Shown: piece after piece, positions 9,054 through 25,943 of the stretch
Layout of the letters: every line of letters starts with the position of its first letter
Position numbering within the stretch: the stretch's first letter is position 1
DNA from: Deltaproteobacteria bacterium
GTDB lineage: Bacteria; Desulfobacterota; Binatia; UBA9968
Direction: 5' to 3'
DNA length: 61,012 nt
Assembly: GCA_016193465.1 (NCBI GenBank)
Contig: JACPSE010000057.1
Span: 1-61,012, forward strand
Notes under the pieces: model-generated
The model's database searches: none
Seen by the model: the letters and a program-made list of their open reading frames with translations, nothing else
What the model was told of the DNA's origin: nothing
Translations under genes and position numbers: made by a program

Positions 9054-9206
9054 ATGGATCAGAGGCTTTTTCAGGACTTCCGGGAAGTGTTAGAGCATTT
9101 CGAGACGCACGGTCGCCTCATGCGTATCAAGCAGGAAGTCGGGCTTGATGACTACAAGATCTCCTCTAGCGGGGTAAGGAGAGTCCATGAGACTACGTGC
9201 CGGTAA
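9054..9206 (+). pseudogene. Truncated duplicate of the 5' end of ubiD copy 1
   Basis: Bases 9060-9166 match 3637-3743 inside ubiD copy 1 without gaps and with 5 mismatches in 107 (about 95% identity). The frame is preserved: MDQRLFQDFREVL... continues for about 38 codons, then a base insertion shifts it and it stops at 9204-9206, overlapping the next gene. The rest of ubiD is absent. It is therefore a recombination scar. It might still be translated as a 50-residue leader coupled to the downstream gene, since a TAAGGAG ribosome site for 9187 lies inside its tail. Confidence 0.9.
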
Positions 9207-10269
9207 CGCTTGCTGGCATGCGCATCATGTATTTGCTTTAGCCACTTGCTTCGAAGCGGGCTTCTTTGAACAGGAGGGCCTCGACTTGGAGGTCGTGCAC
9301 GCCAAGATCTACGCCGGAGGTATGAGGGCGAGTGAGCCTGGCGGGGAACGCTACGATGAGGTCGGCAATGTATTGCCTGACATGATCCGCTTTGGCATCG
9401 ATATTATTGCCGACATCCACCTGCCGACTATTTTCAACGAGCGAAACCTCGGCAATGATGAGTTGCGCATCATTGGTGGCTGGCGGAGCTATTACCCTTA
9501 CGCTGTGATGGCGCGCTCAGGAATTACTTCGATCGCTGATCTCAAAGGCAAGCGAATTGGCGAATGGTACAGAGGCTCACAGTACACACTCTGGTTCGAG
9601 CACCAACTGAGAAAGGTGGGGCTGGATCCTGACCGCGACGTACAATGGATGACCGGTTATCAATATGGTTCCGCACGCGAGGCTTGGAAGCCACTTTTGG
9701 CAGGCCAGACAGACATCGCTGTCGTTCAAAACCCGTGGGTTCCCCGGCTTATGGAACAGGGTTTCAATAAGATTTTTGACTTTATTGAGTATCACCGACC
9801 CCACGGGCGCCCTGAACGGGTGACAGTAGCACGGAAGTTATTCATTGAGCGTCATCCGGAGCTCATCAAGCGCTACTGGAAGGCAACGATCCGCGGCTAC
9901 CAGTTCATGCGCATCGTTCCCGAGAGCTATCCCTTCCAACGTTATGTGGAGGCGAAGCTCCGCATTCACAACCCAGATGAGTCGGAGCGCATGCGCAACT
10001 TACGGGGAGATATGTCAAAAGAGGGATTAGAGCTGATGGAAAGCAGTTTTTATCCAATAGATGGTAAGGTCAGCATTGAGGGAGTCGTGCGGCTGATTGA
10101 AGAGTTCAAGGAAGGGGGCATAGCACCAGCCTCAGTTAGCCGTTCTGATATTGAGGAGGTTGTTCGCAACGACCTTGTCGAGGAGGCGTGGGCGGAGGTA
10201 TCGCAGACTGACGAGGTGAAGCGCAACCTCGAACGGCTCCAGCCTGTGATCGAAAAATACGGATATTAG
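9187..10269 (+). CDS. Signal-less NMT1/THI5-like (PBP2-fold) protein, module copy 1
   Basis: 360 residues. PBP2-fold features: CFEAGFFEQEGLDLEVV near the start, then ADLKGKRIGEW (domain hinge) and LLAGQTDIAVVQNPWV. Unlike ordinary ABC receptors there is no signal peptide; the protein begins MRLRAGNACWHAHHV, giving C9-x-H11-x2-H14. This C-[WY]-H-x2-H motif is invariant in all three copies in the window (also 11475 and 25944). The C-terminus NLERLQPVIEKYGY is also shared. The RBS TAAGGAG fixes the ATG at 9187. A secreted binding protein follows 40 bases later. Possible roles are a cytosolic substrate carrier, a sensor, or an enzyme: the PBP2 fold is used by Thi5 and by 4,5-dihydroxyphthalate decarboxylase. 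Fold is well supported, function is not. Confidence 0.8.
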   Translation: MRLRAGNACWHAHHVFALATCFEAGFFEQEGLDLEVVHAKIYAGGMRASEPGGERYDEVGNVLPDMIRFGIDIIADIHLPTIFNERNLGNDELRIIGGWRSYYPYAVMARSGITSIADLKGKRIGEWYRGSQYTLWFEHQLRKVGLDPDRDVQWMTGYQYGSAREAWKPLLAGQTDIAVVQNPWVPRLMEQGFNKIFDFIEYHRPHGRPERVTVARKLFIERHPELIKRYWKATIRGYQFMRIVPESYPFQRYVEAKLRIHNPDESERMRNLRGDMSKEGLELMESSFYPIDGKVSIEGVVRLIEEFKEGGIAPASVSRSDIEEVVRNDLVEEAWAEVSQTDEVKRNLERLQPVIEKYGY

Positions 10270-10309
10270 GCCCATGGATCTCAACCTCAGAAGATAAGAG
10301 GAGGAAAAG

Positions 10310-11422
10310 ATGAAGAAATCCTTTGGGGTTCTAGCTGTCTTACTAGTTCTCGCTTCGCTTATTGGAAGCAAATACTCTCTCGCGGCCAGCCCCTCTTTAC
10401 TGAAAGCGAAAAAGGAGGCCGAGGCCAAAGGGTACTTATTCGAAACAAGCCACGATGCCATCGTAGACAAAGCCAAAAAACAGGGCAGACTCCGCGTCAC
10501 CGTGAATCTTGAGCCCAAGACGCTTGTTCATTTAGCTAAGGTCTTCCGAGAAAAGTATCCCTTCGTTGATGCCTATGTGGAGGAGAGTACCGGTGTCGAT
10601 ACCTCAGAGCGCTTTTTTCTTGAGCTCCAGGCGGGCCGGGCAAACTGGGATATAGCCCGGATAAACTTGGACACGAATCCAGGACACCTCAAGCATGCCA
10701 AGAAAGTCGATCTCTTGGAAATGGCCGGGCATGGCGTTCTGAAGATCCCTATCAAAATGATCGATCCGAGGAACCGGAATGTCCTAGCTACCTCCAGCCA
10801 CGCGGGGGTCGCCGCTTTCAATCGATGCGTCCTGGAGCCCTCCCGGGTTCCCAATCGCTGGGAGGACTTCTTGAAACCCGAATTCAAGGGTAGAAAATTC
10901 GCCGCCGAAATTCGGCCTCTCAATCATGCCCCTATGGCTGCCGGGGCCGGAGAAGAATGGCTGGTCAGTTATGCGAAGAGGATCGCCGCCCAGCAACCGA
11001 TCTGGTTCCGAGGGCATACCAGGGCCCTTATGGCCATGACCGCAGGAGAAATCGCGCTGCACTCTCTAACCAATTACAATAGCGTGATGACGGTAATACA
11101 AAAAGATCCGCAAGGATGCCTCCAGGTAAAGCCGATCGATCCCATCCCAGTAAGGCTCAGCGTGTTCCAGATGGTTTTGGAGAACGCGACGAACCCGCAC
11201 GCCGGCATCCTGTGGCTCGAATTCATGGCCAGTCCTGCTGCCCAGCGCATCCTTGACGACGAGTTGTTCAAGTCTTCCATCTATGCCCATGGTTCAGCCC
11301 TGGAGGAGCTCGTGAGAGGCAAAAAAGTCTGGGTGCTCGATTGGGATCACTTCGAGAAGAGCGAAAGGTGGGTTCAAATGGCGGTCGAGGCCTTTGGTTT
11401 CCCCACGGCCGAAAGAAATTAG
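10310..11422 (+). CDS. Secreted extracellular solute-binding protein (Fe3+-ABC type), module copy 1
   Basis: 370 residues with a signal peptide (KK then a hydrophobic core at about 5-24, cleavage near SLAAS). The mature N-terminus carries a subfamily mark shared by four proteins here (10310, 12615, 16903, 24721): KKEAEAKGYLFETSHDAIV followed by AKKQGRLRV. WEDFLKPEFKGRKF is the typical hinge strand of Fe3+/spermidine-type receptors; the iron-ligand tyrosines of FbpA are not evident, so iron is not implied. Follows the signal-less partner at 9187. No permease or ATPase gene is nearby. Confidence 0.85.
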   Translation: MKKSFGVLAVLLVLASLIGSKYSLAASPSLLKAKKEAEAKGYLFETSHDAIVDKAKKQGRLRVTVNLEPKTLVHLAKVFREKYPFVDAYVEESTGVDTSERFFLELQAGRANWDIARINLDTNPGHLKHAKKVDLLEMAGHGVLKIPIKMIDPRNRNVLATSSHAGVAAFNRCVLEPSRVPNRWEDFLKPEFKGRKFAAEIRPLNHAPMAAGAGEEWLVSYAKRIAAQQPIWFRGHTRALMAMTAGEIALHSLTNYNSVMTVIQKDPQGCLQVKPIDPIPVRLSVFQMVLENATNPHAGILWLEFMASPAAQRILDDELFKSSIYAHGSALEELVRGKKVWVLDWDHFEKSERWVQMAVEAFGFPTAERN

Positions 11423-11474
11423 AAGGCACCTGGCTCGTAGCGCGATTTCGGATCGCACGCCGAGGAAAGGAATC

Positions 11475-12539
11475 GTGAAACTTCGCGTCGGCAACGGCTG
11501 CTGGCATGCGCGACATGTGCTCGACGCGGCGGTTTGTTTAGAGGCGGGATTTTACACTCAGGAAGGAGTTGGCGTTGAAATTGTCCACGCCAAGGTCAAC
11601 CCGAAGGCGATTGAATCGAGCCGGCCTGAGGGTGAGCGCTACGACGAAGTAGGAACTGTTTTGCGTGACATGGTCGCCTTTGGGATCGATGTCATCACTG
11701 ATATTCACGTCCTAACGCCTTTTGCTGAGAGGTGTCTTGGCAATGACCAGTTACGGATCATTGGTGGGTGGCGCAATCAGTGTATTGGTGCGCTGGTTTC
11801 GGCCCCGGGGATCAAATCTTTTGCGGATTTGAAGGGTAAGCGGATTGGGGATTGGTACAAAGGTGGAATTACAACTATGTGGTATGAGTACCAGTTGCGC
11901 AAGGCGGGATTGGATCCGAATCGAGATGTGGAATGGAAAATCGGGTACAAATACGGCTCCAGGCGTGAGTCGTGGAAGGCGCTTTTGGCAGGCGAGACGG
12001 ACGCCGCGACCGTGCAGAACCCCTTTGTCCCAAGGCTACTCGAACAAGGGTTTAACAAGCTCTATGATTTTGTGGAGGAATCCAAACCGCATGGCCGTCC
12101 GGAAAGAGTCACTGTAGCGCGTAAATTGTTTATTGAACGAAATCCGGAGCTGATCAAGCGTTACTGGAAAGCAACGATTCGCGGCTACCAATTTATGCGT
12201 ATCGTTCCCGAGAATTTTCCTTTCCAGCGTTACGTGGAAGCGAAGCTGCGCATTGATAACCCGGACGAATCGGAACGGATGCGCGACCTCCGTCCCATTA
12301 GCGTTATGGAAGGCGCCTTTCATCCTCTGGATGGTCAGTTGAGCGTAGAGGGGGTGTGGCGGATCTTGGAGGAGCATGAGGACGCGGGGGTGTTGTCGCG
12401 TTCGATCACGCGCGCGGATGTGGAGGAGGTGGTGCAGCAGGGGTTGGTGCAGGAGGCGTGGGCAGAGGTGTCGCAGACCGACGAGGCGAAGCGCAACCTT
12501 GAGCGGCTCCAGCCCGTGGTGGAGCGTTTGGGCTATTAA
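11475..12539 (+). CDS. Signal-less NMT1/THI5-like (PBP2-fold) protein, module copy 2
   Basis: 354 residues from the GTG at 11475 (RBS AGGAAAGG at 11463), which aligns its VKLRVGNGCWHARH with the ATG start of copy 1. The open frame runs upstream to 11394, but that part overlaps the previous gene. Long identical blocks with copy 1 (for example PELIKRYWKATIRGYQFMRI) show recent duplication. C9, H11 and H14 of the C-[WY]-H-x2-H motif are kept, as is GERYDEVG. No signal peptide. It precedes a secreted receptor at 12615, repeating the order of copy 1. Confidence 0.82.
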   Translation: MKLRVGNGCWHARHVLDAAVCLEAGFYTQEGVGVEIVHAKVNPKAIESSRPEGERYDEVGTVLRDMVAFGIDVITDIHVLTPFAERCLGNDQLRIIGGWRNQCIGALVSAPGIKSFADLKGKRIGDWYKGGITTMWYEYQLRKAGLDPNRDVEWKIGYKYGSRRESWKALLAGETDAATVQNPFVPRLLEQGFNKLYDFVEESKPHGRPERVTVARKLFIERNPELIKRYWKATIRGYQFMRIVPENFPFQRYVEAKLRIDNPDESERMRDLRPISVMEGAFHPLDGQLSVEGVWRILEEHEDAGVLSRSITRADVEEVVQQGLVQEAWAEVSQTDEAKRNLERLQPVVERLGY

Positions 12540-12614
12540 TAGGGCCGGGGGAGAAACCACTTTCGGGATGCGTTTGAGGAATAGGCGAAACTTAGCCTGA
12601 AAGAGGAGGAACTG

Positions 12615-13724
12615 TTGTATATGGTTACTATTGCTCTTTACATTCTGGTCTCCCTGCTGGTGCCTGCGACTGCTGAGGGAGCTAGTTCCGGCCTAATCAA
12701 GGCCAAGCAAGAGGCCGAGGCCAAGGGATTCATTTTCGAAGCTGGCCACGACGAGATAGTGGAAAAAGCGCGTAAAGAGGGTAGGCTCCGCGCCATAGTC
12801 TCGCTGGACTCAAGCACATTTAATACTTTGGCCAAGGCTTTCAGGGAAAAGTATTCGTTTCTGGATGTTCGCGTCGAGGAGGTCAGCGGCACAGAAGCTA
12901 GTCAGCGGTTTCTTTTGGAACTAAAGGCCGGGCGAGCCCAAGGCTGGGATATATCTTATGTTCCTCCGGACACCCTGACAGACTATCTCCCGCATGGCAA
13001 GAAAGTGGATCTGCTGGGTATGGCGGAGCACGGCGTCCTAGCCATTCCAACGAAGATTATCGATCCAAAGAGTCGGAAAGCCATTGCCGTTTCCAGTACG
13101 GTTGGCGCTACCGCCTTTAATCGGTGCATTCTCGATGCGTCCAAGGTTCCCGAGCGGTGGGAGGACTTTCTGAAACCTGAGTTTAAGGGTAGAAAGTTCA
13201 TTGTGGACGTCCGACCGCTCAACTATACATCGATGGCCGCGGGAGCTGGAGAGGAATGGATGGCGAGCTATGCGCGGAAGATTGCTACTCAGCAACCGGT
13301 CTGGCTCCGGGGGCAAACCAGAGCCCTGACCTCCATATTAGCTGGCGAGTATGGACTCCATTCGCTCACCAATTACCAATCTGTTGTGGAAGCCATGCAG
13401 AAAGACCGAACGGGATGCCTCCAGGTGAAAGTCATCGAGCCTGTTCCGGTCAGGCTGAGCGAACCGCAGATGATCGTGGAGGGTGCGTCGCATTTTTATG
13501 CGGGAATGCTGTGGTTGGAGTTCATGGCCAGCCCGATTGCCCAACGCATCATTGATGAAAAAGAGCCTCTCAAATCCTCTATCTATATCCCGGGCTCAGC
13601 CCTGGAAAAAATTGTGCGCGGAAAGAAAGTTTGGGTCCTTGATTGGAACAACTTCGAGAAGAGCCCAAAATGGGTGGAAATGGCCCTTGAAGCCTTTGGC
13701 TTTCCGCAGGCGCAAAATAAGTGA
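12615..13724 (+). CDS. Secreted extracellular solute-binding protein (Fe3+-ABC type), module copy 2
   Basis: 369 residues. The signal peptide starts at a TTG just after GAGGAGG, or at the ATG two codons later, with cleavage near AEGAS. The subfamily mark KQEAEAKGFIFEAGHDEIV and the hinge WEDFLKPEFKGRKF are present. It is clearly paralogous to the product of 10310 along its whole length, so the two-gene module was duplicated as a unit. The ligand is not predictable, and no permease is adjacent. Confidence 0.83.
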   Translation: MYMVTIALYILVSLLVPATAEGASSGLIKAKQEAEAKGFIFEAGHDEIVEKARKEGRLRAIVSLDSSTFNTLAKAFREKYSFLDVRVEEVSGTEASQRFLLELKAGRAQGWDISYVPPDTLTDYLPHGKKVDLLGMAEHGVLAIPTKIIDPKSRKAIAVSSTVGATAFNRCILDASKVPERWEDFLKPEFKGRKFIVDVRPLNYTSMAAGAGEEWMASYARKIATQQPVWLRGQTRALTSILAGEYGLHSLTNYQSVVEAMQKDRTGCLQVKVIEPVPVRLSEPQMIVEGASHFYAGMLWLEFMASPIAQRIIDEKEPLKSSIYIPGSALEKIVRGKKVWVLDWNNFEKSPKWVEMALEAFGFPQAQNK

Positions 13725-13788: not shown

Positions 13789-14928
13789 ATGTCTTACCTG
13801 GAGCCTTGGAAGGAGCTGGAACAGATAAACTGCTCAGACCAGCTAAAGCGCTTTGTTCATCAGAACGAGGAGGATAGGCGAGTCTCTTCCTTGCCTCATG
13901 TTCTGAAGCCGCTCCCCGCAAAAGCGACTGTGATGGGTCAAGACAGCCCGCACCAAACAGGCGATCTTACAAGCTACGATATTTTGACCCGGGCCCCGCT
14001 TTATTTTTTCGCGTCCCACGTCGTAGAAATCCCACCGCATGTGCCGGTGCGCGGGGTGCACCGTCACCTTGCCGCCCCAACGATTTTCTGCTTCCGGGGA
14101 AAGGGATGGGAGTGGAATGACGGGGTTACGTACGAGTTTGAGACTTATGACATGGTGTGTTTTCCACCATACTCGACACATCAACACGGTGGGGATCGAG
14201 AGGTCGGTTGCGGAATGATCTCCCTGGCAACAAGGCTTTTTCACATGCTGGGATTAATGTGGCGCGAGCAGCACAAACTAAGCGAGAAACCTGTTTTCCC
14301 GGAGGGAACGGAACCCATTTACGATGATGCCGGTAAGCTTCAGGGGTATCGAATCAAGAAGGGAGTGCTAGGCGTTGAGAAGGACGTGGAGGTTGTCGTG
14401 GGGGCGGACAGCCGATTGGAGGTCGTCTTCCGCGTGCGCAAAGAAGCCGGCGCGTGGTCTGAAACCGTAGCGAATACCTATGACCGCTACACTAAGCTTT
14501 TTCATGACGAAGTCAGTTATCTTGGCCGGGTGGACCATGTTGTCCATGAGCGGAGGGAAGATTGGGAATGGTCCCGTCATGGCAAGATCAAGTGGCTCAT
14601 TCACCCGGAAATCGAGACGGGGGCGAAGCAAGTCTGGGTGTATCTCCAGGAGATTCCCGCTGGGAGCCGGTCGGGGATGCACAGGCATATCGCCGAGGAA
14701 CAGATCATGGTCTTGGAAGGCAAGGGATACGATTTGCATGACGGGGTCCGGTGGGACTGGGAGCAGGGTGACTTTATCTGCATTCCCCGTATGACAGCGC
14801 ACCAACACTTTGTTGCGGGTGAGAATCGAGCTGTCCTCCTATGTGCAATGCCCAGCCCGCCCACCGTGCTTGGCTTAGGCGGGATAGAGCAATTGGAGGA
14901 CGCGCCGGAGTATCAGTCAGTGGCTTAA
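13789..14928 (+). CDS. Bicupin protein, gentisate/salicylate dioxygenase-like
   Basis: 379 residues with two cupin barrels. Cupin 1 (about 75-150) has VHRHLAAPTIF..GKGWEWNDGV and HQHGG; cupin 2 (about 280-355) has GMHRHIAEEQIMVLEGKGYD and a second HQHF. Both keep the His-x-His plus Glu/His metal ligands, so both sites could hold Fe or Mn. Bicupins of this type include gentisate and salicylate 1,2-dioxygenases that open aromatic rings, but also non-oxygenase proteins. The spacing after the module-2 receptor is 64 bases. The C-terminal barrel resembles the two single cupins at 30896 and 31395. Confidence 0.8.
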   Translation: MSYLEPWKELEQINCSDQLKRFVHQNEEDRRVSSLPHVLKPLPAKATVMGQDSPHQTGDLTSYDILTRAPLYFFASHVVEIPPHVPVRGVHRHLAAPTIFCFRGKGWEWNDGVTYEFETYDMVCFPPYSTHQHGGDREVGCGMISLATRLFHMLGLMWREQHKLSEKPVFPEGTEPIYDDAGKLQGYRIKKGVLGVEKDVEVVVGADSRLEVVFRVRKEAGAWSETVANTYDRYTKLFHDEVSYLGRVDHVVHERREDWEWSRHGKIKWLIHPEIETGAKQVWVYLQEIPAGSRSGMHRHIAEEQIMVLEGKGYDLHDGVRWDWEQGDFICIPRMTAHQHFVAGENRAVLLCAMPSPPTVLGLGGIEQLEDAPEYQSVA

Positions 14929-15285: not shown

Positions 15286-15463
15286 TTTCAACCACATTTA
15301 CAAGGGCAGCAGTTGTTTTCTTGTAGTGAGGAACTCTAGCGGTGCGTCGATTATGCCGCGGCCCGGAATAGTCGAAGAAAGCAGAAGCAAGAGAGTTCCT
15401 TCTTACTTTGGGCCCGTTCCCTATAATGGCGTTGTAAAAATGAGTAACGCAAGGAGATCAGAA

Positions 15464-16879
15464 ATGACAATTGCCGAGCAACTAGCCGCGGAGGCTAAGG
15501 GTTTATCCTTCGGTGACCTGCCACCCGAGGTGGTTCACCAAGTCAAGCGTTTGGTGCTGGATACGGTGGGAGTCGGTTTTGGTGGCTATTGGAGCGAGCC
15601 AAGCCAGATCATTCAGAGCCTGATCAAGGAGGTGAACGGTCCGGCCGAATCAACCGTTTTCATCAGCGGTCTCAAGACCTCGTGTCTGTATGCCACTTTG
15701 GCCAATGGGGTTATGGTTCGCTACCACGACTACATGGATAGAGGCTGCCTTACAAAACAGGCGCGTAGCGACGACACGGGGCACCACAGCGAGTCGATTC
15801 CACCGATCTTAGCTGTGGGTGAGCGGCAGCACACAAGTGGTAAGGAGGTCACAACGACGATTGCTTCGGCCTATGAACTCTTGAATAAAATCGTCGATTC
15901 GGTGGGAGGACAGATGGGAGTCATAGATAGACGAGGTTGGGCGCCTGAGACTAGAACTCCCGCCATCATGGCCCTAATTGCGGGTAGGCTGCTAGGGCTT
16001 AGCGAGGAACAGATGGCAAACGGCCTGGCTATCGCAACTTGTTTCACTTTGCAGTTGGGCATCTTGCATGCCGGTGAAGAGGAATTGAGCATGGCCCGGA
16101 ATCTGAGGTTTCCGTATGGCTCTCATAGCGGCATCCTCGGCGCCTTATTAGCGCAGAAAGGTTTTAAGGGTCCGCTAAATGTGTTCGAGGGGCATCACGG
16201 CTTTGCTGAGGTTGTGGCGGGAGGAGAGATGGACTTGGAGAAGTTGAGACAGCCGAGGAAAGATTGGCTGATTTTGAATACCTGGGTCAAGAGATTTGCT
16301 GCCAATGGACGCATACAGGGCCATATAGAGGCGACTTTAAAATTGGTCAAAGAGCACGATATAAGACCTGATGACGTAGCGGAGGTTAGAATCAAATCAA
16401 CCTCTCGTGTCTACCGGCAGATGGCCAATCCTGAAACGCGTCGATATCCCAAAAATAAATATACCGCGGACCACAGTTCTTATTACACGACCGCGGTCGC
16501 CATCATTGACCGGGCCGTAGGACCTGATCAGTACTCAGACGAGAAGCTGCAAGATCCTCGAGTACGGGAGCTGGCAGATAAGGTTTTCGTAGAGCGAGAT
16601 CCTAAGCTAGATGAATTTAGTTCCCCAGGCATCGTCGAAATCACTACCAAGAAAGGCCAAAAATATCACTGTGAGCTTCTCCAGCCTAAGGGGCATCCGA
16701 TGAATCCTATGACCGATGCTGACATCGAGGAGAAATTCCGCAGCATGGCAGGGAAGTTCATGGATGAGAAACAGATGAGGCAGGTTATTGATACTGTTTA
16801 CAATTTAGAGAAGCTCGATGATATCGGTGAGTTGGTAAAACTGCTGGTTGTTCCCGAAAAGATCCTGCAAAAATCGTGA
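15464..16879 (+). CDS. MmgE/PrpD family protein
   Basis: 471 residues from the ATG at 15464, preceded by AAGGAG at 15451; ATGs further upstream (15326, 15440) lack an RBS. The start MTIAEQLAAEAKGLSFGDLP and the segment KRLVLDTVGVGFGG are typical of the 2-methylcitrate dehydratase (PrpD)/MmgE fold, whose other members include cis-aconitate decarboxylase and many uncharacterised lyases. In environmental genomes such genes often sit beside orphan binding proteins, as here (next gene 24 bases away). The substrate is unknown. A broken copy of its first codons is at 18151. Confidence 0.88.
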   Translation: MTIAEQLAAEAKGLSFGDLPPEVVHQVKRLVLDTVGVGFGGYWSEPSQIIQSLIKEVNGPAESTVFISGLKTSCLYATLANGVMVRYHDYMDRGCLTKQARSDDTGHHSESIPPILAVGERQHTSGKEVTTTIASAYELLNKIVDSVGGQMGVIDRRGWAPETRTPAIMALIAGRLLGLSEEQMANGLAIATCFTLQLGILHAGEEELSMARNLRFPYGSHSGILGALLAQKGFKGPLNVFEGHHGFAEVVAGGEMDLEKLRQPRKDWLILNTWVKRFAANGRIQGHIEATLKLVKEHDIRPDDVAEVRIKSTSRVYRQMANPETRRYPKNKYTADHSSYYTTAVAIIDRAVGPDQYSDEKLQDPRVRELADKVFVERDPKLDEFSSPGIVEITTKKGQKYHCELLQPKGHPMNPMTDADIEEKFRSMAGKFMDEKQMRQVIDTVYNLEKLDDIGELVKLLVVPEKILQKS

Positions 16880-16902
16880 ACTCATCCCAAAGGAGGCGGG
16901 CC

Positions 16903-18033
16903 ATGAGGATTACGGGCCTTAACAAAATCGTTGTTTCCTTCGGTCTTTTATTATTAATGTTGGCTCCCACGCATGGGCTTGCAGCTAGTCCTGACCTACA
17001 GAAAGCCAAGCAAGAGGCTGAGGCTAAGGGGTACATCTTTTTTACCACCCACGACGAAATTGTGGCCATGGCAAAGAAGGAGGGAAAACTCCGGGTAGAT
17101 AACCGCCTGAATTCCCCCAATTACAAGCCGTTGATTAATGGATTTAAGCAAAAGTACGCTTTTGTGAGTGACATCAGTGTTGAGGAGCTTCAGGGCCACG
17201 AAGCTTTCCAGAGGTATCTCCTGGAGATAAAGTCAGGACAAGCTAAGGGGGACGTGGTCCTTGTAAGCCCCTCCGTCGGCGGAGAGTATATGCCTTATAT
17301 GATGAAGTATGACATTCTTGGCATGGCCAAGCATGGTGTGCTCAAAATCCATCCTGGGATGATACACCCCGTTAGGCGCAATGTAATAGGCATTTCAAGC
17401 GCCATAACGGTCGTGCCTTACAACAGGAAGCTTATCTCGGAAGATAAGGTCCCTGCTACATGGGAGGATTTCCTAAAACCTGAGTTCAAGGGAAAGAAAT
17501 TCATAGTGAATATTTCTCCCACCGACGTAGTTCCGCTGGTGCCTGCCTGGGGCCTGGAAAAAACAGTGGATTTCGCCGGGAAGATAGCAGCCCAGCAGCC
17601 CGCGTGGGGTAGCGGCGGGACCAGAACTACCTCGGCCATACTTGCTGGAGAGCATCCTCTCCTCTTCGGTTCTGCTTACAATACAGTTAAGCGGCTTATG
17701 ATGAGGGACCCGACCGGGAATTTTAGCTACAAGATCGTTGAGCCTGTCCCTACCCTGATTGTTGACGATGCCACTGGCGTCCTCCATACGGCCGATCATC
17801 CCCATGTCGCTCTCTTATGGTTGGAGTTCCTCGCGTCTCCTGAGGCTCAGGAGATCATAGATAAACACGAGCCCTTTATTGCCTCGGTGTTTACTCCTGG
17901 CTCAGCAATAGCACATGAGATCCGGGGGAAGAAGCTATCGGCGGTAGACTGGAATCATGTCGACAAGTTTATAGGATATAGGGAGAAGATATTTGCAGCC
18001 TACGGTTTTCCGAAAGCGGATAAAAAGAAATAG
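16903..18033 (+). CDS. Secreted extracellular solute-binding protein, same subfamily as the modules
   Basis: 376 residues from the ATG at 16903, which has AGGAGG 12 bases upstream. Signal peptide with a strong hydrophobic core (VVSFGLLLLMLAP), cleavage near GLAAS. The subfamily mark KQEAEAKGYIFFTTHDEIV and hinge WEDFLKPEFKGKKF group it with 10310, 12615 and 24721. Here the partner gene is MmgE/PrpD, not a signal-less PBP-fold protein, so this receptor type can be recruited to different enzyme genes. Confidence 0.85.
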   Translation: MRITGLNKIVVSFGLLLLMLAPTHGLAASPDLQKAKQEAEAKGYIFFTTHDEIVAMAKKEGKLRVDNRLNSPNYKPLINGFKQKYAFVSDISVEELQGHEAFQRYLLEIKSGQAKGDVVLVSPSVGGEYMPYMMKYDILGMAKHGVLKIHPGMIHPVRRNVIGISSAITVVPYNRKLISEDKVPATWEDFLKPEFKGKKFIVNISPTDVVPLVPAWGLEKTVDFAGKIAAQQPAWGSGGTRTTSAILAGEHPLLFGSAYNTVKRLMMRDPTGNFSYKIVEPVPTLIVDDATGVLHTADHPHVALLWLEFLASPEAQEIIDKHEPFIASVFTPGSAIAHEIRGKKLSAVDWNHVDKFIGYREKIFAAYGFPKADKKK

Positions 18034-18285: not shown

Positions 18286-19452
18286 ATGAATCCAGAGAAG
18301 GTTTCTATTTACGCCGTTGGAGATGTAATCCCCGACCGACCCAACCCTGAATCGCTTTTTGAATTGGCATTACCCACTCTCAAGGAGGCCGACATTCTCT
18401 TTGGCCAGTTAGAAGCCCCCCTCACGGAGAAAGGCGAGCCTCAACTGCAAGCGTTCCCCGAAGGCGAGCCTCAACTGCAAGCGTTCCCCAGAGGATGCGG
18501 TAGATGGCTCATCCCTGAGTGGGTTTCTGGGCTGACCTACGCAGGCTTCGACGTAATGTCTTTTGCCAGCAACCACACCCTAGACCGGAGCGAAGAGGGC
18601 CTTTTCGCCACCATCGATACTCTGACAAAGAACAACATAGCTGTAATAGGCGTGGGTAAGAACATCGATGAGGCACGAAAGCCCCTGATTTTGGAGCGAA
18701 AAGGAACCAAAGTTGCTTTCCTGGCTTATGGTTCGGTCTTGCCAAAGGGATACGAAGCCAGAGCCGACAAATCGGGCTGTGCGCCGATCAGAGCCTTCAC
18801 CTCCTATGAACAGGTCGATTGGCAGCCAGGGACTCCCCCTAGGGTCCTCACCTTCGCCAATAAGGGTGATTTGACGGCAATGGTAGACGATATCAAGAAG
18901 GTAAGGCCTTTGGCAGAGGTGGTCATAATGTCTATTCACTGGGGAGTCCATAATGTTCCCGGTATGATAGCGATGTATCAAAAGGAAATTGGCTATGCCG
19001 CCATCGATGCCGGCGTCGATTTAATTCTCGGCCACCATGGCCACATCCTGAAAGGAATCGAGGTCTATAAAGGCAAGGTGATCTTCTATGATCTTGCCAA
19101 TTTCGTCGTGCCTACTAAACCGTCCGGGTGGAGAAGTCCCGTCAAGGCGATGTACGGTATAAAGGTGGATACAGAATATCCTGACTATGACATGCCCGTT
19201 GATTCAAGAAAATCGATGATCGCGAAGTGTATCATCTCTGATAAGAAGATCGAGAGAGTCTCCTACTTCCCCGTCATGATTAATGGGCACGCACAACCTG
19301 AGGTCTTATCCCGCTCCGATAAGCGTAGCTCAGAGGTATTTGAGTATATGAACTGGTGTTGCAATAACCAAGGGCTTGATAGCAAATTCTCCTGGGAGGG
19401 GGATGAGGTTGTGATTCGTACTACGGGATTGAAGTCTGGGAGCAACAGATGA
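18286..19452 (+). CDS. CapA/PgsA-family metallophosphoesterase-like protein
   Basis: 388 residues. Family landmarks in order: YAVGDVIPDR, FGQLEAPLTEKG, FASNHTLDRSEEGL, SIHWGVHNVP and LILGHHGHILKG, which are the metallophosphatase-like motifs of CapA (poly-gamma-glutamate capsule) proteins. The usual NLE of motif 2 is QLE here. No signal peptide is visible, and no capBC genes are near, so a capsule role is not supported; many such proteins have unknown functions. A 30-base in-frame tandem duplication adds ten residues (EGEPQLQAFP) after motif 2. RBS GGAAAGGAAA. It converges with the minus-strand ABC operon. Confidence 0.82.
   Translation: MNPEKVSIYAVGDVIPDRPNPESLFELALPTLKEADILFGQLEAPLTEKGEPQLQAFPEGEPQLQAFPRGCGRWLIPEWVSGLTYAGFDVMSFASNHTLDRSEEGLFATIDTLTKNNIAVIGVGKNIDEARKPLILERKGTKVAFLAYGSVLPKGYEARADKSGCAPIRAFTSYEQVDWQPGTPPRVLTFANKGDLTAMVDDIKKVRPLAEVVIMSIHWGVHNVPGMIAMYQKEIGYAAIDAGVDLILGHHGHILKGIEVYKGKVIFYDLANFVVPTKPSGWRSPVKAMYGIKVDTEYPDYDMPVDSRKSMIAKCIISDKKIERVSYFPVMINGHAQPEVLSRSDKRSSEVFEYMNWCCNNQGLDSKFSWEGDEVVIRTTGLKSGSNR
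18431..18490 (+). repeat. 30-bp in-frame tandem duplication inside capA-like gene
   Basis: Bases 18431-18460 and 18461-18490 are identical except for the last base (G versus A). Each unit encodes KGEPQLQAFP or EGEPQLQAFP. The near-perfect identity at DNA level points to a recent slippage or unequal recombination event, which keeps the frame. Confidence 0.95.
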
Positions 19453-19594: not shown

Positions 19595-19611
19595 GGTTGG
19601 CTCTCTCAACC
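19595..19611. repeat. 17-base palindromic repeat, copy 2
   Basis: Identical to 15029-15045. Here it overlaps the last codons and stop (19606-19608) of the minus-strand permease. A second possible stem in this convergent gap is CCCCC...GGGGG at about 19569-19588, without a T-run, so a terminator is not established. Confidence 0.4.
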
Positions 19612-21333
19612 TCGGATGCTGAACTGACCGCCCAGAGTGCGGGCCGTCAAAGCCGCCGCCACGACCAAGAGAACTATCATTGCTGCGATGACCCCGGCCT
19701 TCTCGAGCTCAGCTCCGACCATGTAATCCAGCATCAGTATGGAAAGGGTCCGGGTCGGGCCTCTGGCTAGGAGCACTATGGTGCTTATGTCCCGTGCCGC
19801 CGCAATAAAAAGAACGAGACCCACTACGATGTAGCAGGGCAAAAGGAGCGGCAACAGTACTCGGCGGTAGGTATAAAACCACGAGGCGCCGGCCACCCGC
19901 GATGCCTCCTCCAGCTCATCTCCCAACTGGAGCAAGAAACTTTTAATGACCTGAACGCCCAAGGGCAGGTGACTAATGACCATGGCGAGGACCAGCGCAC
20001 CCATGGTTCCATATATAGGCACAAGCCTATGGATTAAAAGAAGTGTCCATATCAGCGCTAGACCGATCAAGATGCCGGGGATGGAATAAGGCAGCCACGA
20101 GAGGAAATCGAGCAAGGCCCTTCCTGCAAACCTGGTCTTGACAACGATATAGGCGATAAGGGAGCAAAAGAGAACGCCTATCGCGGCAGACGCAAGCCCC
20201 AGGATTAAGGTGTTCTTCAGAGAGCGCAAAAGGATGGGATCTCGCAACACATGCGCCCAATTGTCCAGTGTCCAGGGATCTGGGATATGGAAGTAGCCGA
20301 AGAGCTTCATAAAAGTTCCCAAGAAGACGAAAGCTGTCGGTACCACAGTGATCGTAAAGATAACCAGAAGAACAAAGGCAAAGGCCGGATATTTCCACCA
20401 TCCGAGGGTGATCGGTCGGGAGCTAAAGCCTTTGCCGGTGACCGTGGCGAAGACCTTCTGTCCAAGGTAAAAGCGTTGGAGAGCTACCAAAGAGAGCAGA
20501 ACCACCAGGAAGAAGCTTCCTAAAGCTGCGGCTGGTGGGAAGCGAGGCGGCTCAACGACTATGAAGGAATAAATCTTAGTTGAAAAAACCTCAAGTCCGG
20601 CGGGAGCTCCTAAAATCAGCTCGATTTCAAAGGCCTCCAGAGAGCGAATAAAGCCCAATGTAGTAGCGACTAAAATGCTAGGCATCATTATCGGCACGAT
20701 GACCCGCAGCAGGGTTTTTATAGGCCCGGCCCCCACCACACGGGAGGACTCCTCAAGGGCGGCGTCGAGGTTGCGAAAGGCGGGAGTCAGTAGCATCACT
20801 CTAATGCCGATGGTGGTAGTTAGGTGGGCCCAAACAATGCCCCAATAGGAGTAGATATCAAAGGGAGAGTTTTCTATAAACGGAAGCTTTGTGAGCCACT
20901 GATTGATGAGTCCGTATTTAGGGTCCAGGAGCAAGATCCACCCTAGAGCGACCGGTAGGGCCGGTAAAAAGTAAGATAGCCAGAACATGAATTCAAACCA
21001 TCCCCTCATAGGGATATCAGTCCGGGCCAAAAGCCAGGCAAGGAAAATGCCAACAGCCGTTGCAATGAGCGAACGGCTTATGGCCAGGGTGAAAGTATTG
21101 TATATGGCCTTAACAATGCCTCGGGTGGCGAAGGCCTGCTTCCACGCGTCCAGGCCATAAACGGCTGCCTGGCCAGGCTTTCCGATCTCCAGGCTGTTGA
21201 GAAGGAGCAAGAATAGAGGGGTGAGAACCAGGAAGGCAACAAGAGCTAAAAACAAGCTAAACACGAGGCTCTGCGCATCGAGGCGGGCGGGAAAACGCCT
21301 TGTTTGATCCCCGGAAATCTCTATTGCTTTCAC
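19606..21333 (-). CDS. ABC transporter permease, fused two-domain Fe3+/2-aminoethylphosphonate type
   Basis: 575 residues with about twelve membrane segments in two homologous halves. Each half contains an EAA loop that docks on the ATPase: EESSRVVGAGPIKTLLRVIV in the first and EASRVAGASWFYTYRRVLLP in the second. This is the FbpB/ThiP-type arrangement, where one polypeptide forms the whole membrane channel. It is the last gene of a receptor-ATPase-permease operon (22499, 21362, 19606) and the only ABC permease in the window. Confidence 0.93.
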   Translation of the reverse strand: MKAIEISGDQTRRFPARLDAQSLVFSLFLALVAFLVLTPLFLLLLNSLEIGKPGQAAVYGLDAWKQAFATRGIVKAIYNTFTLAISRSLIATAVGIFLAWLLARTDIPMRGWFEFMFWLSYFLPALPVALGWILLLDPKYGLINQWLTKLPFIENSPFDIYSYWGIVWAHLTTTIGIRVMLLTPAFRNLDAALEESSRVVGAGPIKTLLRVIVPIMMPSILVATTLGFIRSLEAFEIELILGAPAGLEVFSTKIYSFIVVEPPRFPPAAALGSFFLVVLLSLVALQRFYLGQKVFATVTGKGFSSRPITLGWWKYPAFAFVLLVIFTITVVPTAFVFLGTFMKLFGYFHIPDPWTLDNWAHVLRDPILLRSLKNTLILGLASAAIGVLFCSLIAYIVVKTRFAGRALLDFLSWLPYSIPGILIGLALIWTLLLIHRLVPIYGTMGALVLAMVISHLPLGVQVIKSFLLQLGDELEEASRVAGASWFYTYRRVLLPLLLPCYIVVGLVLFIAAARDISTIVLLARGPTRTLSILMLDYMVGAELEKAGVIAAMIVLLVVAAALTARTLGGQFSIRG

Positions 21334-21361: not shown

Positions 21362-22453
21362 TTAAGCCGGCCATAGACTTACTGCGTCTCTAGGAATATG
21401 CAGAGAAATGGCCTGCCCAGCTTCGAACAGCTTTTTGCGCGGTACGTAAACCAGAATTTTTTCCCCGCCCACCTTTACCTGGCACTCTGACCGGTCTCCG
21501 ACAAAAAGCATGGTTTCGATGGTGCCCTTAAGGTTGTTGCCTCCCTTTTCACAGTCTTGCTCTGCTATCACTATATCTTCAGGCCTTACCGACAGATAGA
21601 TATCCTGTCTCACGGCGAGGCTGCCATGGTTCGGACAGTCAATCGGCGTACCTGGAGCACGGGTCAATGCGACCTGAATCGTACGAACCTCTATGGCTTG
21701 AACTCTTCCCTCTAGCACAATCGTCTTGCCTAAAAAGTCTCGTACAAAAGCGCTCTGGGGCTGCTCATAGAGGTGTCTTGGCGTGCCCTGCTGCTCAATC
21801 CTTCCCTGGCTCAACACAACTACCTGGTCCGATAGGCTCAATGCCTCGAGCTGATCGTGGGTGACATAGACCAAGGTAATTCCCAGCCTACGCTGCAACA
21901 GCTTGAGCTCGACGCGCATCTGCTCGCGGAGTTGCGCATCTAAGTTGCTCAGGGGCTCGTCGAGCAAAAGCACCTCAGGCTCATAAACCAGAGCCCGTGC
22001 CAGGGCCACCCGCTGCTGCTGCCCGCCGCTCAGACGCGGTGCGGGACGATTCTCCAGCTCTTCCAGGCCCACGAGGCTCAGGACCCTGCGGACTTTTTCC
22101 TTAATGACGGCTCTACTCATCTTCCGCAGTTCTAACGGATAGGCAACATTCTGGAAGACAGTCATAGTGGGCCAGATGGCGTAGGATTGGAAAACCATTC
22201 CCATATTGCGCTTCTCGGGGTTGAGGTGGATCCTTTTGCTATGCGAGGCGATTGTGCGCCCCTTGAGAAGAATCTCTCCTCTATCGGGCCTCTCCAGCCC
22301 TGCGATCATGCGCAGGGTGGTCGTTTTTCCGCATCCGCTAGGCCCTAAGAAGGTAAAGAGCTGCCCTTCCTCGACTTCCAAGGAGAGGTCGTCTACAACC
22401 TTGACGGGACCGAACGATTTAGTGATTCCACGTAAAGTGAGAGCCGCAGCCAT
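21362..22453 (-). CDS. ABC transporter ATP-binding protein (FbpC/PotA type)
   Basis: 363 residues. Walker A GPSGCGKTT (about 37-45), Q-loop VFQSYAIWP, signature LSGGQQQR, Walker B VLLLDEPLSNLD, switch His in YVTHDQLEA; the C-terminal about 120 residues are a TOBE/OB regulatory domain (LSVRPEDIVI). It powers import through the permease at 19606. The spacing to that gene is 28 bases. Could energise some of the orphan receptors in the window, which is speculation. Confidence 0.95.
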   Translation of the reverse strand: MAAALTLRGITKSFGPVKVVDDLSLEVEEGQLFTFLGPSGCGKTTTLRMIAGLERPDRGEILLKGRTIASHSKRIHLNPEKRNMGMVFQSYAIWPTMTVFQNVAYPLELRKMSRAVIKEKVRRVLSLVGLEELENRPAPRLSGGQQQRVALARALVYEPEVLLLDEPLSNLDAQLREQMRVELKLLQRRLGITLVYVTHDQLEALSLSDQVVVLSQGRIEQQGTPRHLYEQPQSAFVRDFLGKTIVLEGRVQAIEVRTIQVALTRAPGTPIDCPNHGSLAVRQDIYLSVRPEDIVIAEQDCEKGGNNLKGTIETMLFVGDRSECQVKVGGEKILVYVPRKKLFEAGQAISLHIPRDAVSLWPA

Positions 22454-22498: not shown

Positions 22499-23638
22499 CT
22501 AATCCAAGAGCTTTCGTGCAAACTCCAGCGAAGGACGTCGCACCTTAAGGATTTTATCCTCTGTTTGATTCGCGTCTTCGTAAAACTGCTCCACCGTTAT
22601 GAAATCCTTCGCCCCCCGAATTCCAATCTCGGTCATCCAGCGGGTATCCACATCGAGGCGCCGCGAAGCCTGCCCCATGGTCTTGTCGGAAATCTCCTGT
22701 CCCTCCTTGCTGAGGAGCCAGTTGACAAAGACTTTGGCGGCGTTGGGGTGGGGATGCTTATTAAAAATTACCGGCCCGCCGTTGCCGACGGACACGTAGG
22801 TTCCCTCCTTTAAAGATGGAAGGGGCTTGACGGGAAGGCCCGCTTTGACGAACTGAAGGAAGCTATAATAAGTAGGACCAATAGTGATAGCGAGCTTCCC
22901 TTTGGCCAATGAATCGGCTAGTGGCCGCCGGTCGCCAAAGACCAATTTTTGTTGCACGAGTTTTTTGAGATACTCTTCTCCCTTTTTGGCCCAGGCAAAA
23001 CCCCATATCCCCTGACCGGCCCCGCCTAAGCGCGGGTCGAAAAACCCGATCTTGCCTTTCCACTTGGGATTCAAAAAATCATCCCACGAGCGCACCTCTT
23101 CCGGTTTCACCAGCTCCGAGTTGTACCACACGTTATCCTGAAAATATGCCGCCGGGGCATAGGCATAGCGCTTGGCGTTATCGGTCCAAATGTGACCGCC
23201 CCACCAGTTCTTTGGCTCTTTGACCTCCGGCAGAATCCAATAGGGATCGAGAGGCTGCACCGCCCCTACGGGAAGCAGGTCGGTTGAAATTCTGTCAAAA
23301 GTTAGAATAGCCACGTCGAAATAATGGACACCGGCCTTGTATTCATCAGCCAACCTCCTGACAGCCTTCGAACCTGTTTCCAGCACCGATTCCACTTCGA
23401 TTCCAAACTTCTGCCTGAACACCGCCTCGAGCTGCTTTCTATGTTCAGGACTAGGTGGGAGATTGACCACGACCTTTCCTTCTTGCTTCGCTTTTGCTTT
23501 CACCTGCTCCCATTCGGTCTGCCAGGCAGGCTGGGCAAAGGCCGAAGGAGCTGCCCCGATAACCATGAGTAGGGCTAAAGTTGCGGTGCTCAGGGCCTTT
23601 TGCATTGGTACCATCACTGATGAATCCAACTTTTTCAT
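22499..23638 (-). CDS. Extracellular solute-binding protein of the complete ABC transporter
   Basis: 379 residues with a signal peptide (core STATLALLMVIGAAPS, cleavage at AFAQP). Mature part: WEQVKAKAKQEGKVVV, FRQKFGIEVE, YNSELVKPEEVRSWDDFLNPKWKGKIG and FVNWLLSKEGQ, all standard in Fe3+/2-aminoethylphosphonate-type receptors. RBS TAAGGAGG directly upstream. It stands first in the receptor-ATPase-permease operon, so it is the cognate receptor. Ligand unknown. Confidence 0.92.
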   Translation of the reverse strand: MKKLDSSVMVPMQKALSTATLALLMVIGAAPSAFAQPAWQTEWEQVKAKAKQEGKVVVNLPPSPEHRKQLEAVFRQKFGIEVESVLETGSKAVRRLADEYKAGVHYFDVAILTFDRISTDLLPVGAVQPLDPYWILPEVKEPKNWWGGHIWTDNAKRYAYAPAAYFQDNVWYNSELVKPEEVRSWDDFLNPKWKGKIGFFDPRLGGAGQGIWGFAWAKKGEEYLKKLVQQKLVFGDRRPLADSLAKGKLAITIGPTYYSFLQFVKAGLPVKPLPSLKEGTYVSVGNGGPVIFNKHPHPNAAKVFVNWLLSKEGQEISDKTMGQASRRLDVDTRWMTEIGIRGAKDFITVEQFYEDANQTEDKILKVRRPSLEFARKLLD

Positions 23639-23703: not shown

Positions 23704-24579
23704 CTAAGATGTTTGAGGTCTAATCTCACGTGCCCGCGCTAAAAAGGAAAGGTCAGCAACCTCATCGAGCCTAGCTCCCCGAGCCTGGCCGCTTCCAATG
23801 GTGAGGACCTCCTCTATGTGAGCGATGGCGGCTTCGCTCACAGCGGTTGAGTACCATTGCCGGAGCACATCATAATTGCCCTCGACCGCTTCCCGATCCA
23901 GATAAGGAACATTCTTAATGGCCACGGCTATCGCTTCATCTCTGTAGGTTTTCACAAAATCCGTGGCCTTCACCATAGCGTTGACTACCCTCTGCACTAC
24001 ATCCGGATTTTCGTTGATGAGCTTCTGGCTAGTCGCGAGGCATCCTTCAGGCCAGGCATTGTCGGGGTCAGGATATGGCAGAAGATGAAAACCGCCTTTC
24101 CTAAGCCAGAACAGATACTGGGCCCGCCCGAATACCGCAGACAGGCTGGGATCTAAGAAGGCCTTGGCCCGCTGCGACAGCTCTCCAGAGACGACTTCCA
24201 GATCCCTGCCGGGCTGCCAACCATAGCGGTGACATAACCACAAAACTTCATTGTAAGACCTGCCGCCTCCGACCATCACCTTTTTGCCCTTGAGATCGGC
24301 GAGCGACCGGATCTCCTCCCTCGCCGCGCATGGATACCTGGAGTTGCTCGTCGCGCATAGAGCTTTTACCTTCACCCCGCGCAAGGCTGCTTCAACGATT
24401 GCACTTATTGATGTATAAAAAGCGATTTCACCTTCAACCAGTAGCTGGACGGCTGTCCGCTTGGGATCGTGCGAGTGCAAACAGCGGACCTTAACGCCTT
24501 CTTGTTCGAAAAATCCCTTTTCCTCGGCCGCGTAGAAGGGGAGACCGGTCATAGTGGGGGAACGCAAGACTAAGAGCAT
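23704..24579 (-). CDS. NMT1/SsuA-like PBP2-fold protein without signal peptide
   Basis: 291 residues. PFYAAEEKGFFEQEGVKV, DLKGKKVMVGGG and RAQYLFWLRKG identify the NMT1/THI5-like PBP2 fold. It starts MLLVLRSPTMTGLP with the RBS GGAGAG close to the ATG, and there is no upstream in-frame secretion signal. The C-[WY]-H-x2-H motif of the module proteins is absent, so it belongs to a different branch. Sits between the third module and the complete ABC transporter. Confidence 0.78.
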   Translation of the reverse strand: MLLVLRSPTMTGLPFYAAEEKGFFEQEGVKVRCLHSHDPKRTAVQLLVEGEIAFYTSISAIVEAALRGVKVKALCATSNSRYPCAAREEIRSLADLKGKKVMVGGGRSYNEVLWLCHRYGWQPGRDLEVVSGELSQRAKAFLDPSLSAVFGRAQYLFWLRKGGFHLLPYPDPDNAWPEGCLATSQKLINENPDVVQRVVNAMVKATDFVKTYRDEAIAVAIKNVPYLDREAVEGNYDVLRQWYSTAVSEAAIAHIEEVLTIGSGQARGARLDEVADLSFLARAREIRPQTS

Positions 24580-24720: not shown

Positions 24721-25845
24721 TTACTTCTTGATTTCCGCCTTGGGAAAGCCATAGGCTGCCACTACTTTGGCCTGATAATCGCTGAGTTTAGTGTAATGGT
24801 CCCAGTCCACCTCCGATAACTTCTTGCCCCTGATTTCCTGCCCTTGAATTGAGCCAGGTCCGTGGATAGAGGCCCCAAAGGGCTCATACTCGTCAATTAA
24901 CTTCTGGGCCTCTTGAGTAGTTTGGAACTCCAGCCACAATAGAGCGACGTGGGGAGAGCGGCTTGTGGCAATGACGCCGAGAGACTCGCTCATCCGAACC
25001 GGGATCGGTTCTAATAACCTGTAGCCGAGGCTTCCAGTTCGGTCTTTGACCTGCGCTTCCCGGATGGTTTTATAGTTGTTGCCTATGAACATGAGACGCT
25101 CCCCTGCGCTCAATGCCGCCATGCCTCTCGTCCCGCCACGCACCCAGACCGGCTCCTGCGCGGCCAATTTCCGCGCATAGTCTAAAGTCCTTTCAAGCCC
25201 CCAGGCCGGAACCAGCGCGGCGATTTCGGTAGGCCTTATGTCCGCCAAGAACTTTTTTCCCTTGAACTCGGGTTTTAGGTAGTCTTCCCATGTGCCCGGG
25301 GTCTTATCGTGAGAGATCAAATTCTTATTGTATGCCACGCCGACCTGTATATTCGCAGTCATCGCCACTATATTGCGATTTTTTGGGTCGATCATCTTAA
25401 GCGGGATTTGGAGCACGCCCTGGCCTGCCATTCGGAGGATGTCGAACTTCTTAAAATAGGGGGGGTACTCGTTGTAAAGATCGTTAGCCATCGTCATGAC
25501 GTCCCACTCCTTGCTCACGCCGGCCTTCAATTCGAGCAGGACGCGCTGCAGCGCATCGATGCCGGCCAGCTCTTGCGCGGTTATATCAACGAAAGGGTAT
25601 CTCTGCCTGAAGGCGCTCGTAACGGCTTTAATAGACTCGGGACTCAAACCGCTCAGAACGCGAAGTTTGCCCTCTTTTTTGGCTTCGGCCACTATCTCAT
25701 TGTGGCTGCTAAAGAATATGTAGCCCTTGGCCTCGGCTTCACTTCTGGCCTTATCTGCGGAGGGATTGGCCGCCGCGGCGGAAACGGTCTGAGAAAGTCC
25801 CAGGGTAAGGGTCAAAAAGGCGACATTAAGAAGGTTGCGGTTCAT
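24721..25845 (-). CDS. Secreted extracellular solute-binding protein, module copy 3
   Basis: 374 residues from the ATG at 25845 (RBS GCGAGG); an upstream ATG at 25869 adds eight residues before the signal peptide and is less likely. Signal core LNVAFLTLTLGLS, cleavage near VSAAA. The subfamily mark RSEAEAKGYIFFSSHNEIV and WEDYLKPEFKGKKF place it with 10310, 12615 and 16903. It follows the signal-less PBP-fold gene (25944) in transcription order, as in copies 1 and 2. Confidence 0.85.
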   Translation of the reverse strand: MNRNLLNVAFLTLTLGLSQTVSAAAANPSADKARSEAEAKGYIFFSSHNEIVAEAKKEGKLRVLSGLSPESIKAVTSAFRQRYPFVDITAQELAGIDALQRVLLELKAGVSKEWDVMTMANDLYNEYPPYFKKFDILRMAGQGVLQIPLKMIDPKNRNIVAMTANIQVGVAYNKNLISHDKTPGTWEDYLKPEFKGKKFLADIRPTEIAALVPAWGLERTLDYARKLAAQEPVWVRGGTRGMAALSAGERLMFIGNNYKTIREAQVKDRTGSLGYRLLEPIPVRMSESLGVIATSRSPHVALLWLEFQTTQEAQKLIDEYEPFGASIHGPGSIQGQEIRGKKLSEVDWDHYTKLSDYQAKVVAAYGFPKAEIKK

Positions 25846-25943
25846 ATGGCACCTCGCTCTTAAGATCATTTACCGGTACTGTGCTTCAGCCAATTTTTCG
25901 CGCTGCGCAGGCCCGCACCTGCTGCCAACTCCCAAGGACTTCC

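Follow-up and report, generated by a model that had tools for sequence, protein, structure and literature searches.

Paired genes and the signal-less protein

The DNA analysed here, hereafter the window, is a stretch of 61,012 nucleotides (nt) from a Deltaproteobacteria bacterium (Desulfobacterota; Binatia; UBA9968), corresponding to positions 1 to 61,012 of the forward strand of contig JACPSE010000057.1 in the 4.5 Mb assembly GCA_016193465.1, which consists of 238 contigs. Three times in the window, a gene for a protein of the periplasmic binding protein (PBP) fold without an export signal is followed by a gene for a secreted receptor. The upstream, signal-less member of each pair is designated A, and the downstream member, a secreted receptor of the SBP_bac_6/SBP_bac_8 type, is designated B. 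The six genes and their profile matches (E, expect value; aa, amino acids) are as follows.

9187..10269, + strand: A1, signal-less NMT1/THI5-fold protein of 360 aa with C9-x-H11-x-x-H14 (PF09084, E 3.9e-14)
10310..11422, + strand: B1, secreted solute-binding protein (SBP) of 370 aa, N-terminal hydrophobic signal identified by eye (PF13343, E 5.2e-10)
11475..12539, + strand (longest open reading frame, ORF, from TTG at 11394): A2, paralogue of A1 (PF09084, E 3.2e-14)
12615..13724, + strand: B2, secreted SBP with a TTG start (PF13343, E 5.3e-8)
24721..25869, - strand: B3, secreted SBP (PF13416, E 6.5e-8)
25944..27053, - strand (longest ORF to 27092): A3, signal-less NMT1/THI5-fold protein (PF09084, E 5.7e-15)

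The ORFs lie in the order A then B in all three pairs, as the original prediction, made from the sequence alone, had described, and A1, A2 and A3 score 53.5, 53.8 and 56.2 bits against PF09084, the curated cut-off of which is 20.5 bits. In alignments, A1 and A2 are 67% identical and A3 is 31% identical to A1, which agrees with the description of copies 1 and 2 as close and of copy 3 as diverged; B3 is 42% identical to B1 and 41% to B2.

The original prediction also held that A has the PBP fold and no export signal, and named a missed secretion signal as one of the findings that would overturn it. The open frame of A1, 363 codons for 360 aa, is closed by a stop three codons ahead of the start, and a missed signal is thereby excluded for copy 1. 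The AlphaFold2 (AF2) model of A1 has a PBP fold with strand 1 beginning at residue 3 (mean predicted local distance difference test, pLDDT, 87.5; predicted template modelling score, pTM, 0.88); together with the PF09084 match and the upstream stop, this bears out the assignment. For copies 2 and 3, the longer readings add leaders that are polar only, as judged by eye, and a missed signal peptide is therefore unlikely. In a sliding hydropathy analysis, which separates the classes in part only and was not relied on, the medians were 1.61 for A, 2.56 for non-A NMT1 proteins and 2.68 for B, and the level reached by 36 of 51 non-A NMT1 proteins was also reached by 11 of 60 A proteins. In most of the high-scoring A proteins printed for inspection, the hydrophobic stretch appeared by eye to be helix 1, after the HxxH motif and inside the fold; at locus L094, an A gene can be read from further upstream, which adds a hydrophobic stretch ahead of the aligned start. 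This overlap and the L094 reading, along with membership of the same superfamily and neighbourhoods similar to those of true receptors, are what could be said for A being an ordinary exported receptor of an ATP-binding cassette (ABC) transporter with a missed or non-classical signal. Against the closed frame of copy 1, the polar leaders of copies 2 and 3 and the usual position of the hydrophobic stretch, that explanation is highly improbable, and A is predicted to be cytosolic. Profile libraries label A-type proteins as ABC transporter substrate-binding proteins, so that these proteins carry a receptor annotation despite the predicted absence of an export signal.

Genomic neighbours and age of the pairing

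The original prediction regarded the partnership of A and B as constant and proposed counting how often the two families adjoin. The window's genome contains 20 A genes and 84 B copies, the latter all sharing 42% identity or more with the query over no less than 83% of its length. A co-directional A gene was found within 450 nt upstream of 6 of the 84 B copies, with A upstream of B in all six, whereas MmgE/PrpD genes adjoin 26 copies (13 upstream and 20 downstream of B, some on both sides) and CapA genes adjoin 14; the remaining 43 have none of the three alongside. MmgE/PrpD is thus the commonest neighbour of B among the three partner families counted, and B is mostly unpaired with A. The threefold module therefore stands as a description of the window but not of the genome, in which the count revealed no fixed, co-inherited A-B unit.

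Seen from A, the association with receptors is above chance. A co-directional receptor gene lies within 300 nt of 12 of the 20 A genes in the window's genome. In the background set, drawn from 20 sampled contigs of this genome and limited to non-A genes encoding at least 200 aa, the count is 7 of 141 (p 1e-8); among the remaining genes of the regions that contain A in 17 genomes, it is 57 of 239 (p 0.001). Across these 17 genomes, all of one taxonomic family, a receptor adjoins 37 of 63 A genes, a set that includes orthologues from related genomes and is hence not independent, and in which nine lie at an end of the stretch fetched. The receptors are TctC (10 downstream and 2 upstream of A), B-type (9 and 4), NMT1 (4 and 10) and other SBP6 proteins (0 and 2), the NMT1 neighbours being scored as receptors on the assumption that each is exported. 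B-type, TctC and NMT1 receptors are thus similarly frequent beside A, which does not accord with a constant A-B partnership; the importers encoded near A belong to unrelated classes. The 63 genes were obtained from 70 matches after removal of an inverted-contig duplicate (L105), two fragments shorter than 200 aa and four matches superseded by an overlapping ORF (L089:1499-2563, two in L103 and one in L121). The contig of the duplicate, G015:C74 (L105/L045), carries the same genes twice, inverted around its middle, which is probably an assembly artefact.

The possibility that the adjacency of A and B is a by-product of the crowding of receptor genes, with no functional tie, derives its force from the high rate of receptor neighbours among the other genes of these regions and from the small share of B copies that follow A. 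It is nevertheless quite unlikely, given that A exceeds the same-region rate, that A is upstream in all six of the pairs with B and that TctC directly follows A in 10 of the 63 cases, orthologues included; the constancy of order is tempered by the four A genes that have a B-type receptor upstream.

The divergence of copy 3 had been taken as a sign that the pairing is old. A FastTree phylogeny was constructed from 60 B proteins on sampled contigs of the window's genome (profile E 1e-60, at least 300 aa), a set that differs from the 84 counted copies. B1, B2 and the B protein of contig C194 form one clade (support 0.96), in line with the closeness of their A partners, while B3, the B proteins of C190 and C61 and a divergent B protein of C129 fall in four other places, so that the seven A-paired tips occupy five places in the tree. 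Copy 3 is not a divergent version of the other two. On the basis of the tree and of the counts of neighbours, an old conserved pair is rejected. An ancestral pair with subsequent losses was also considered, but with 7 of 60 tips paired, repeated gain requires fewer steps, as judged by eye. The simplest reading is that one A-B pair was duplicated locally and that the other pairings arose repeatedly and independently.

Neither partner had been thought to possess a dedicated permease or ATPase. This holds for copies 1 and 2, which no such gene adjoins in the window, but the run of copy 3 contains a complete ABC transporter. In this run, A3, B3 and the four genes listed below follow one another on the same strand, separated by 74, 141, 65, 45 and 28 nt; the first of the four encodes a second, different signal-less NMT1 protein, designated C.

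23704..24579, - strand: C, signal-less NMT1 protein of 291 aa (PF09084, E 1.4e-17)
22499..23638, - strand: SBP of the ABC transporter (PF01547, E 6.1e-13)
21362..22453, - strand: ABC ATPase (TIGR03265, PhnT2, E 8.8e-106, below the curated cut-off)
19606..21333, - strand: two-domain ABC permease (TIGR03262, PhnU2, E 3.2e-48, below the curated cut-off)

The C protein is without the HxxH motif. In its family, four of six members adjoin ABC genes, two of the four being near-identical relatives: the contexts are its own run, relatives in genomes G023 and G011 directly after a permease, and one G023 member after an ATPase. For A itself, an ABC permease directly adjoins 4 of the 63 genes (L076, L079, L085 and L090; permeases only were counted), and in the related metagenome-assembled genome (MAG) CoA_1_bin.89 (L041), B and cupin genes are followed by a relative of A2 (80%) and, 139 nt further, by an ABC permease. 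At L108, by contrast, A lies within a TctB, A, TctC, TctA run, and transporters of the TctC/TctA type operate without an ATPase. The importer class near A thus alternates between ABC-type and TctC/TctA while A stays, which would be expected if A followed its substrate and not one particular transporter.

Conserved residues, fold and possible roles of A

Conservation was assessed in a set of 60 A proteins, each at least 280 aa long, that were picked with the A profile, both L105 copies included. Positions 11 and 14 are His in 58 of the 60, with gaps in the other two, and D76, W99, R211 and E306 are present in 55, 56, 55 and 57 proteins, respectively; at position 9, 41 proteins have Cys, 12 His and 5 Asn. 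In non-A NMT1 paralogues from the same regions, His occurs at column 11 in none of 51 proteins and is outside the five commonest residues at column 14. Since the A paralogues diverge to about 22% identity, this constancy makes a shared chemistry likelier than a set of receptors for different ligands. In the AF2 secondary structure, H11 and H14 are at the start of helix 1, D76 is near a strand end and W99-R100 is at a strand end, and the conserved residues would accordingly occupy the usual cleft or ligand positions of PBPs in the model. An A-like protein of 448 aa in the same genome (L084:6410-7756, - strand, contig C61) has about 130 extra N-terminal residues, in which no Pfam match was found.

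A fold search with A returned receptors (3qsl, a putative exported protein, Z 21.1; CmpA, Z 20.9; the ThiY-type 3ix1, Z 19.9), enzymes (Thi5, Z 21.0; DszB, Z 17.4; MqnD, Z 16.5; 4,5-dihydroxyphthalate decarboxylase, Z 14.7) and the regulatory domain of CmpC (Z 19.6); the leading Z values are close and their rank order carries no weight. Thi5, DszB, MqnD and 4,5-dihydroxyphthalate decarboxylase are cytosolic enzymes of the PBP fold. The statement that a cytosolic PBP-fold partner of a receptor has no standard explanation therefore overlooked two precedents, such enzymes and the cytosolic CmpC/NrtC regulatory domain.

Among the enzymes compared with A is Thi5/THI13, the synthase of 4-amino-5-hydroxymethyl-2-methylpyrimidine phosphate (HMP-P), which shares the NMT1/THI5 fold with A (4esx, 4.2 Å over 283 residues, receptors of the superfamily scoring alike) and gives a weak sequence match with the A profile (E 1.5e-5); a structure entry of its H66G variant is among the fold matches. 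The active site of Thi5 comprises His66 and a lysine that binds pyridoxal phosphate (PLP). In contrast to Thi5, A is multi-copy and located near importers, identity in the fold alignment is 16%, no evidence for PLP was obtained for A, and no thiamine protein was found among 20 scanned proteins neighbouring A. The desulfinase DszB (2'-hydroxybiphenyl-2-sulfinate desulfinase; 2de2) also shares the fold, at 15% identity. Its active-site residues are described as Cys27, His60, Arg70 and Gly73 in one source (PMC12168087), and the use of Cys27, His60 and Arg70 is described in two (PMC12168087; PMC6100217). Cys27 lies shortly after strand 1, and Cys9 of A is in a comparable region, residue equivalence being unproven; unlike Cys27, Cys9 is not universal, and DszB His60 and Arg70 are without demonstrated counterparts in A. 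The similarity to 4,5-dihydroxyphthalate decarboxylase (9jp7) consists of the PBP fold and a weak A-profile match (E 0.0058, positions 100-165), and a homologue of this enzyme is encoded directly upstream of one A gene (L113, E 5.4e-48).

Other enzyme genes also adjoin A on either strand, their classes having been assigned by cluster with one or two members of each scanned: UbiD in four places, MutL in three and an AMP ligase in two, as well as cupin and Rieske proteins. A ComA-like gene of the phosphosulfolactate synthase family, which is a sulfite-using family, lies directly beside A at L078, L079 and L081 in the window's genome, and another is beside A at L046 in an Alphaproteobacteria MAG.

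The absence of export, the near-invariant residues in diverged paralogues, the catabolic neighbours and the swapping of importers support a reading in which A proteins are NMT1/THI5-fold proteins that have turned cytosolic and are most likely enzymes acting on a solute from the neighbouring importer; this is the preferred explanation, its probability being close to, but short of, even. A type-II PBP-fold (NMT1/THI5) ancestor would have lost export and become cytosolic, an SBP-dependent importer would supply the solute, and A would act on it inside the cell, possibly by catalysis of the lyase or decarboxylase kind, as in known PBP-fold enzymes, with A and the neighbouring receptor sharing one substrate. 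B would be an ordinary secreted SBP whose family is greatly expanded, its docking partners may be permeases encoded in the run or at other loci, and MmgE/PrpD would be the cytosolic partner of other B copies. The module would then consist of a receptor and the first intracellular handling protein, and receptors (B, TctC, NMT1) and cytosolic partners (A, MmgE/PrpD) would have been recombined repeatedly. A more specific form is possible, with the chances against it: A may constitute a new cytosolic PBP-fold enzyme family, marked by an N-terminal (C/H)xHxxH and conserved Asp, Trp and Arg, multiplied in one bacterial family and repeatedly and independently attached to the importer, be it of the ABC type or of the tripartite tricarboxylate transporter (TTT) type, that supplies its substrate. 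Chemistry of the carbon-sulfur or carbon-carbon lyase kind would be consistent with the presence of Cys9 in most members and with the repeated occurrence of ComA-like genes beside A.

Several observations weigh against an enzymatic role. The PBP fold by itself proves no enzyme; the top fold match, 3qsl, is a putative exported protein, and in sequence A matches receptors and the regulatory domain of CmpC best. The catalytic role suggested for the conserved residues is read from sequence, position 9 is not universally Cys (41 of 60), and the profile-based choice of the 60 proteins contributes to their uniformity. Assignment of A to DszB, which was attractive because of Cys9 and the ComA-like neighbours, found no backing in an hhalign comparison, which aligned the N-terminal regions without confidence and gave no support for residue equivalence. 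No enzyme family is constant beside A among the 63 genes of the 17 genomes, 26 of these genes have no receptor directly alongside, and MmgE/PrpD, located upstream (13) or downstream (20) of B, does not simply occupy the upstream place of A.

The principal rival reading gives A a role as a cytosolic sensor or trans-inhibitor: like the C-terminal regulatory domain of NrtC/CmpC, but as a free-standing protein, it would bind the imported solute and throttle the permease or ATPase. That domain is likewise SBP-like and is associated, by way of the ATPase, with an importer that depends on an SBP, and it is among the top hits both in sequence (9uai, E 5.2e-6 with the A profile) and in fold; the four A genes that adjoin an ABC permease and the ABC contexts of the C family are also consistent with such a role. 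In NrtC/CmpC, however, the domain is part of the ATPase subunit, whereas A is free-standing and also adjoins TctC, at L108 within a run that includes TctA, and the HxxH, Asp, Trp and Arg set is common to A proteins despite their differing neighbouring transporters. The sensor explanation, weakened by the TctC/TctA runs and strongest for the C protein, is considered unlikely for A. It is improbable that A is a non-catalytic cytosolic binder, serving as a buffer or acceptor that passes the imported solute to the next enzyme; the PBP fold, the receptor-like sequence hits and the mixed enzyme neighbours would fit, but HxxH, D76, W99 and R211 barely vary, whereas different substrates would predict variation in the cleft, and we know of no well-established example of a cytosolic PBP-fold buffer or acceptor.

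Other genes of the window, distribution and significance

The remaining genes considered in the window include two that flank the pairs and a cassette in which a fourth B-family receptor is paired with MmgE/PrpD.

13789..14928, + strand: cupin protein after B2 (PF07883, E 1.7e-15)
15326..16879, + strand: MmgE/PrpD protein (PF03972, E 8.3e-46)
16876..18033, + strand: B4, fourth B-family receptor, paired with MmgE/PrpD (PF13343, E 2.6e-10)
18286..19452, + strand: CapA-like (PGA_cap) protein, third gene of the MmgE/PrpD-B cassette (PF09587, E 1.4e-55)
27195..28472, - strand: PaaK-like coenzyme A ligase upstream of A3, same strand (TIGR02155, E 6.8e-74, below the curated cut-off)

The cupin protein gives a weak match to gentisate/aminosalicylate dioxygenase (NF049978, E 1.1e-10, below cut-off), and its 71% homologue is the cupin located between B and A at L041. 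Elsewhere in the window, ARAGORN reported a 96-nt tRNA-Glu at 3614-3709, within the beginning of the UbiD gene located at 3601, which may be a false positive; alternatively, the true UbiD start may be further downstream.

Complete or partial groups of MmgE/PrpD, B and CapA-like genes occur many times, at 15326-19452 in the window and on contigs C107, C121, C139, C201, C38 and others. The genome contains 77 MmgE/PrpD matches, 68 of which exceed 1 kb, and 30 CapA-like matches, and this recurrence is the larger amplification. Lineage-specific expansions of receptor genes near varied membrane components are described for the TTT receptors of Rhodoplanes and the Bug proteins of Bordetella (PMC5994714). 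They likewise comprise many receptor paralogues per genome, whereas the 84-copy family here is of the SBP_bac_6/8 type and often lies beside MmgE/PrpD.

Of 148 genomes of the class, 16 gave matches in a profile search for A in which at most 13 candidates were scored per genome; all 16 belong to the taxonomic family of the window. Among 395 sampled genomes of the phylum, with at most five candidates scored, no genome other than the window's own matched, an absence that constitutes weak evidence. In named records, a set that overlaps the class genomes, so that the counts are not summed, 31 A loci were found: 23 on "Deltaproteobacteria" MAG contigs, one in Candidatus Binatia, one in the Alphaproteobacteria MAG mentioned above (L046, a full-length relative of A) and six weak ones in Vibrio, Bradyrhizobium, Syntrophobacter, Cloacimonetes and two Chloroflexi.

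A small fraction of the PBP superfamily is described as having evolved enzymatic activity (PMC7683729), and a literature search yielded no paper recognized as naming an A-like family. A is a protein type with precedents and its pairing with B was overstated in the original prediction; the novelty is real but modest. If A proteins are enzymes, a mis-named group of cytosolic receptor-fold proteins would become testable for new chemistry, with the adjoining receptors pointing to their substrates, and the receptor scaffold would both catch a substrate outside the cell and convert it inside. If they are sensors, control of the NrtC/CmpC type would exist also in the form of free proteins. In either case, this genome, with its 84 B copies and 68 MmgE/PrpD matches of more than 1 kb, is a natural record of recombination between receptors and catabolic proteins.

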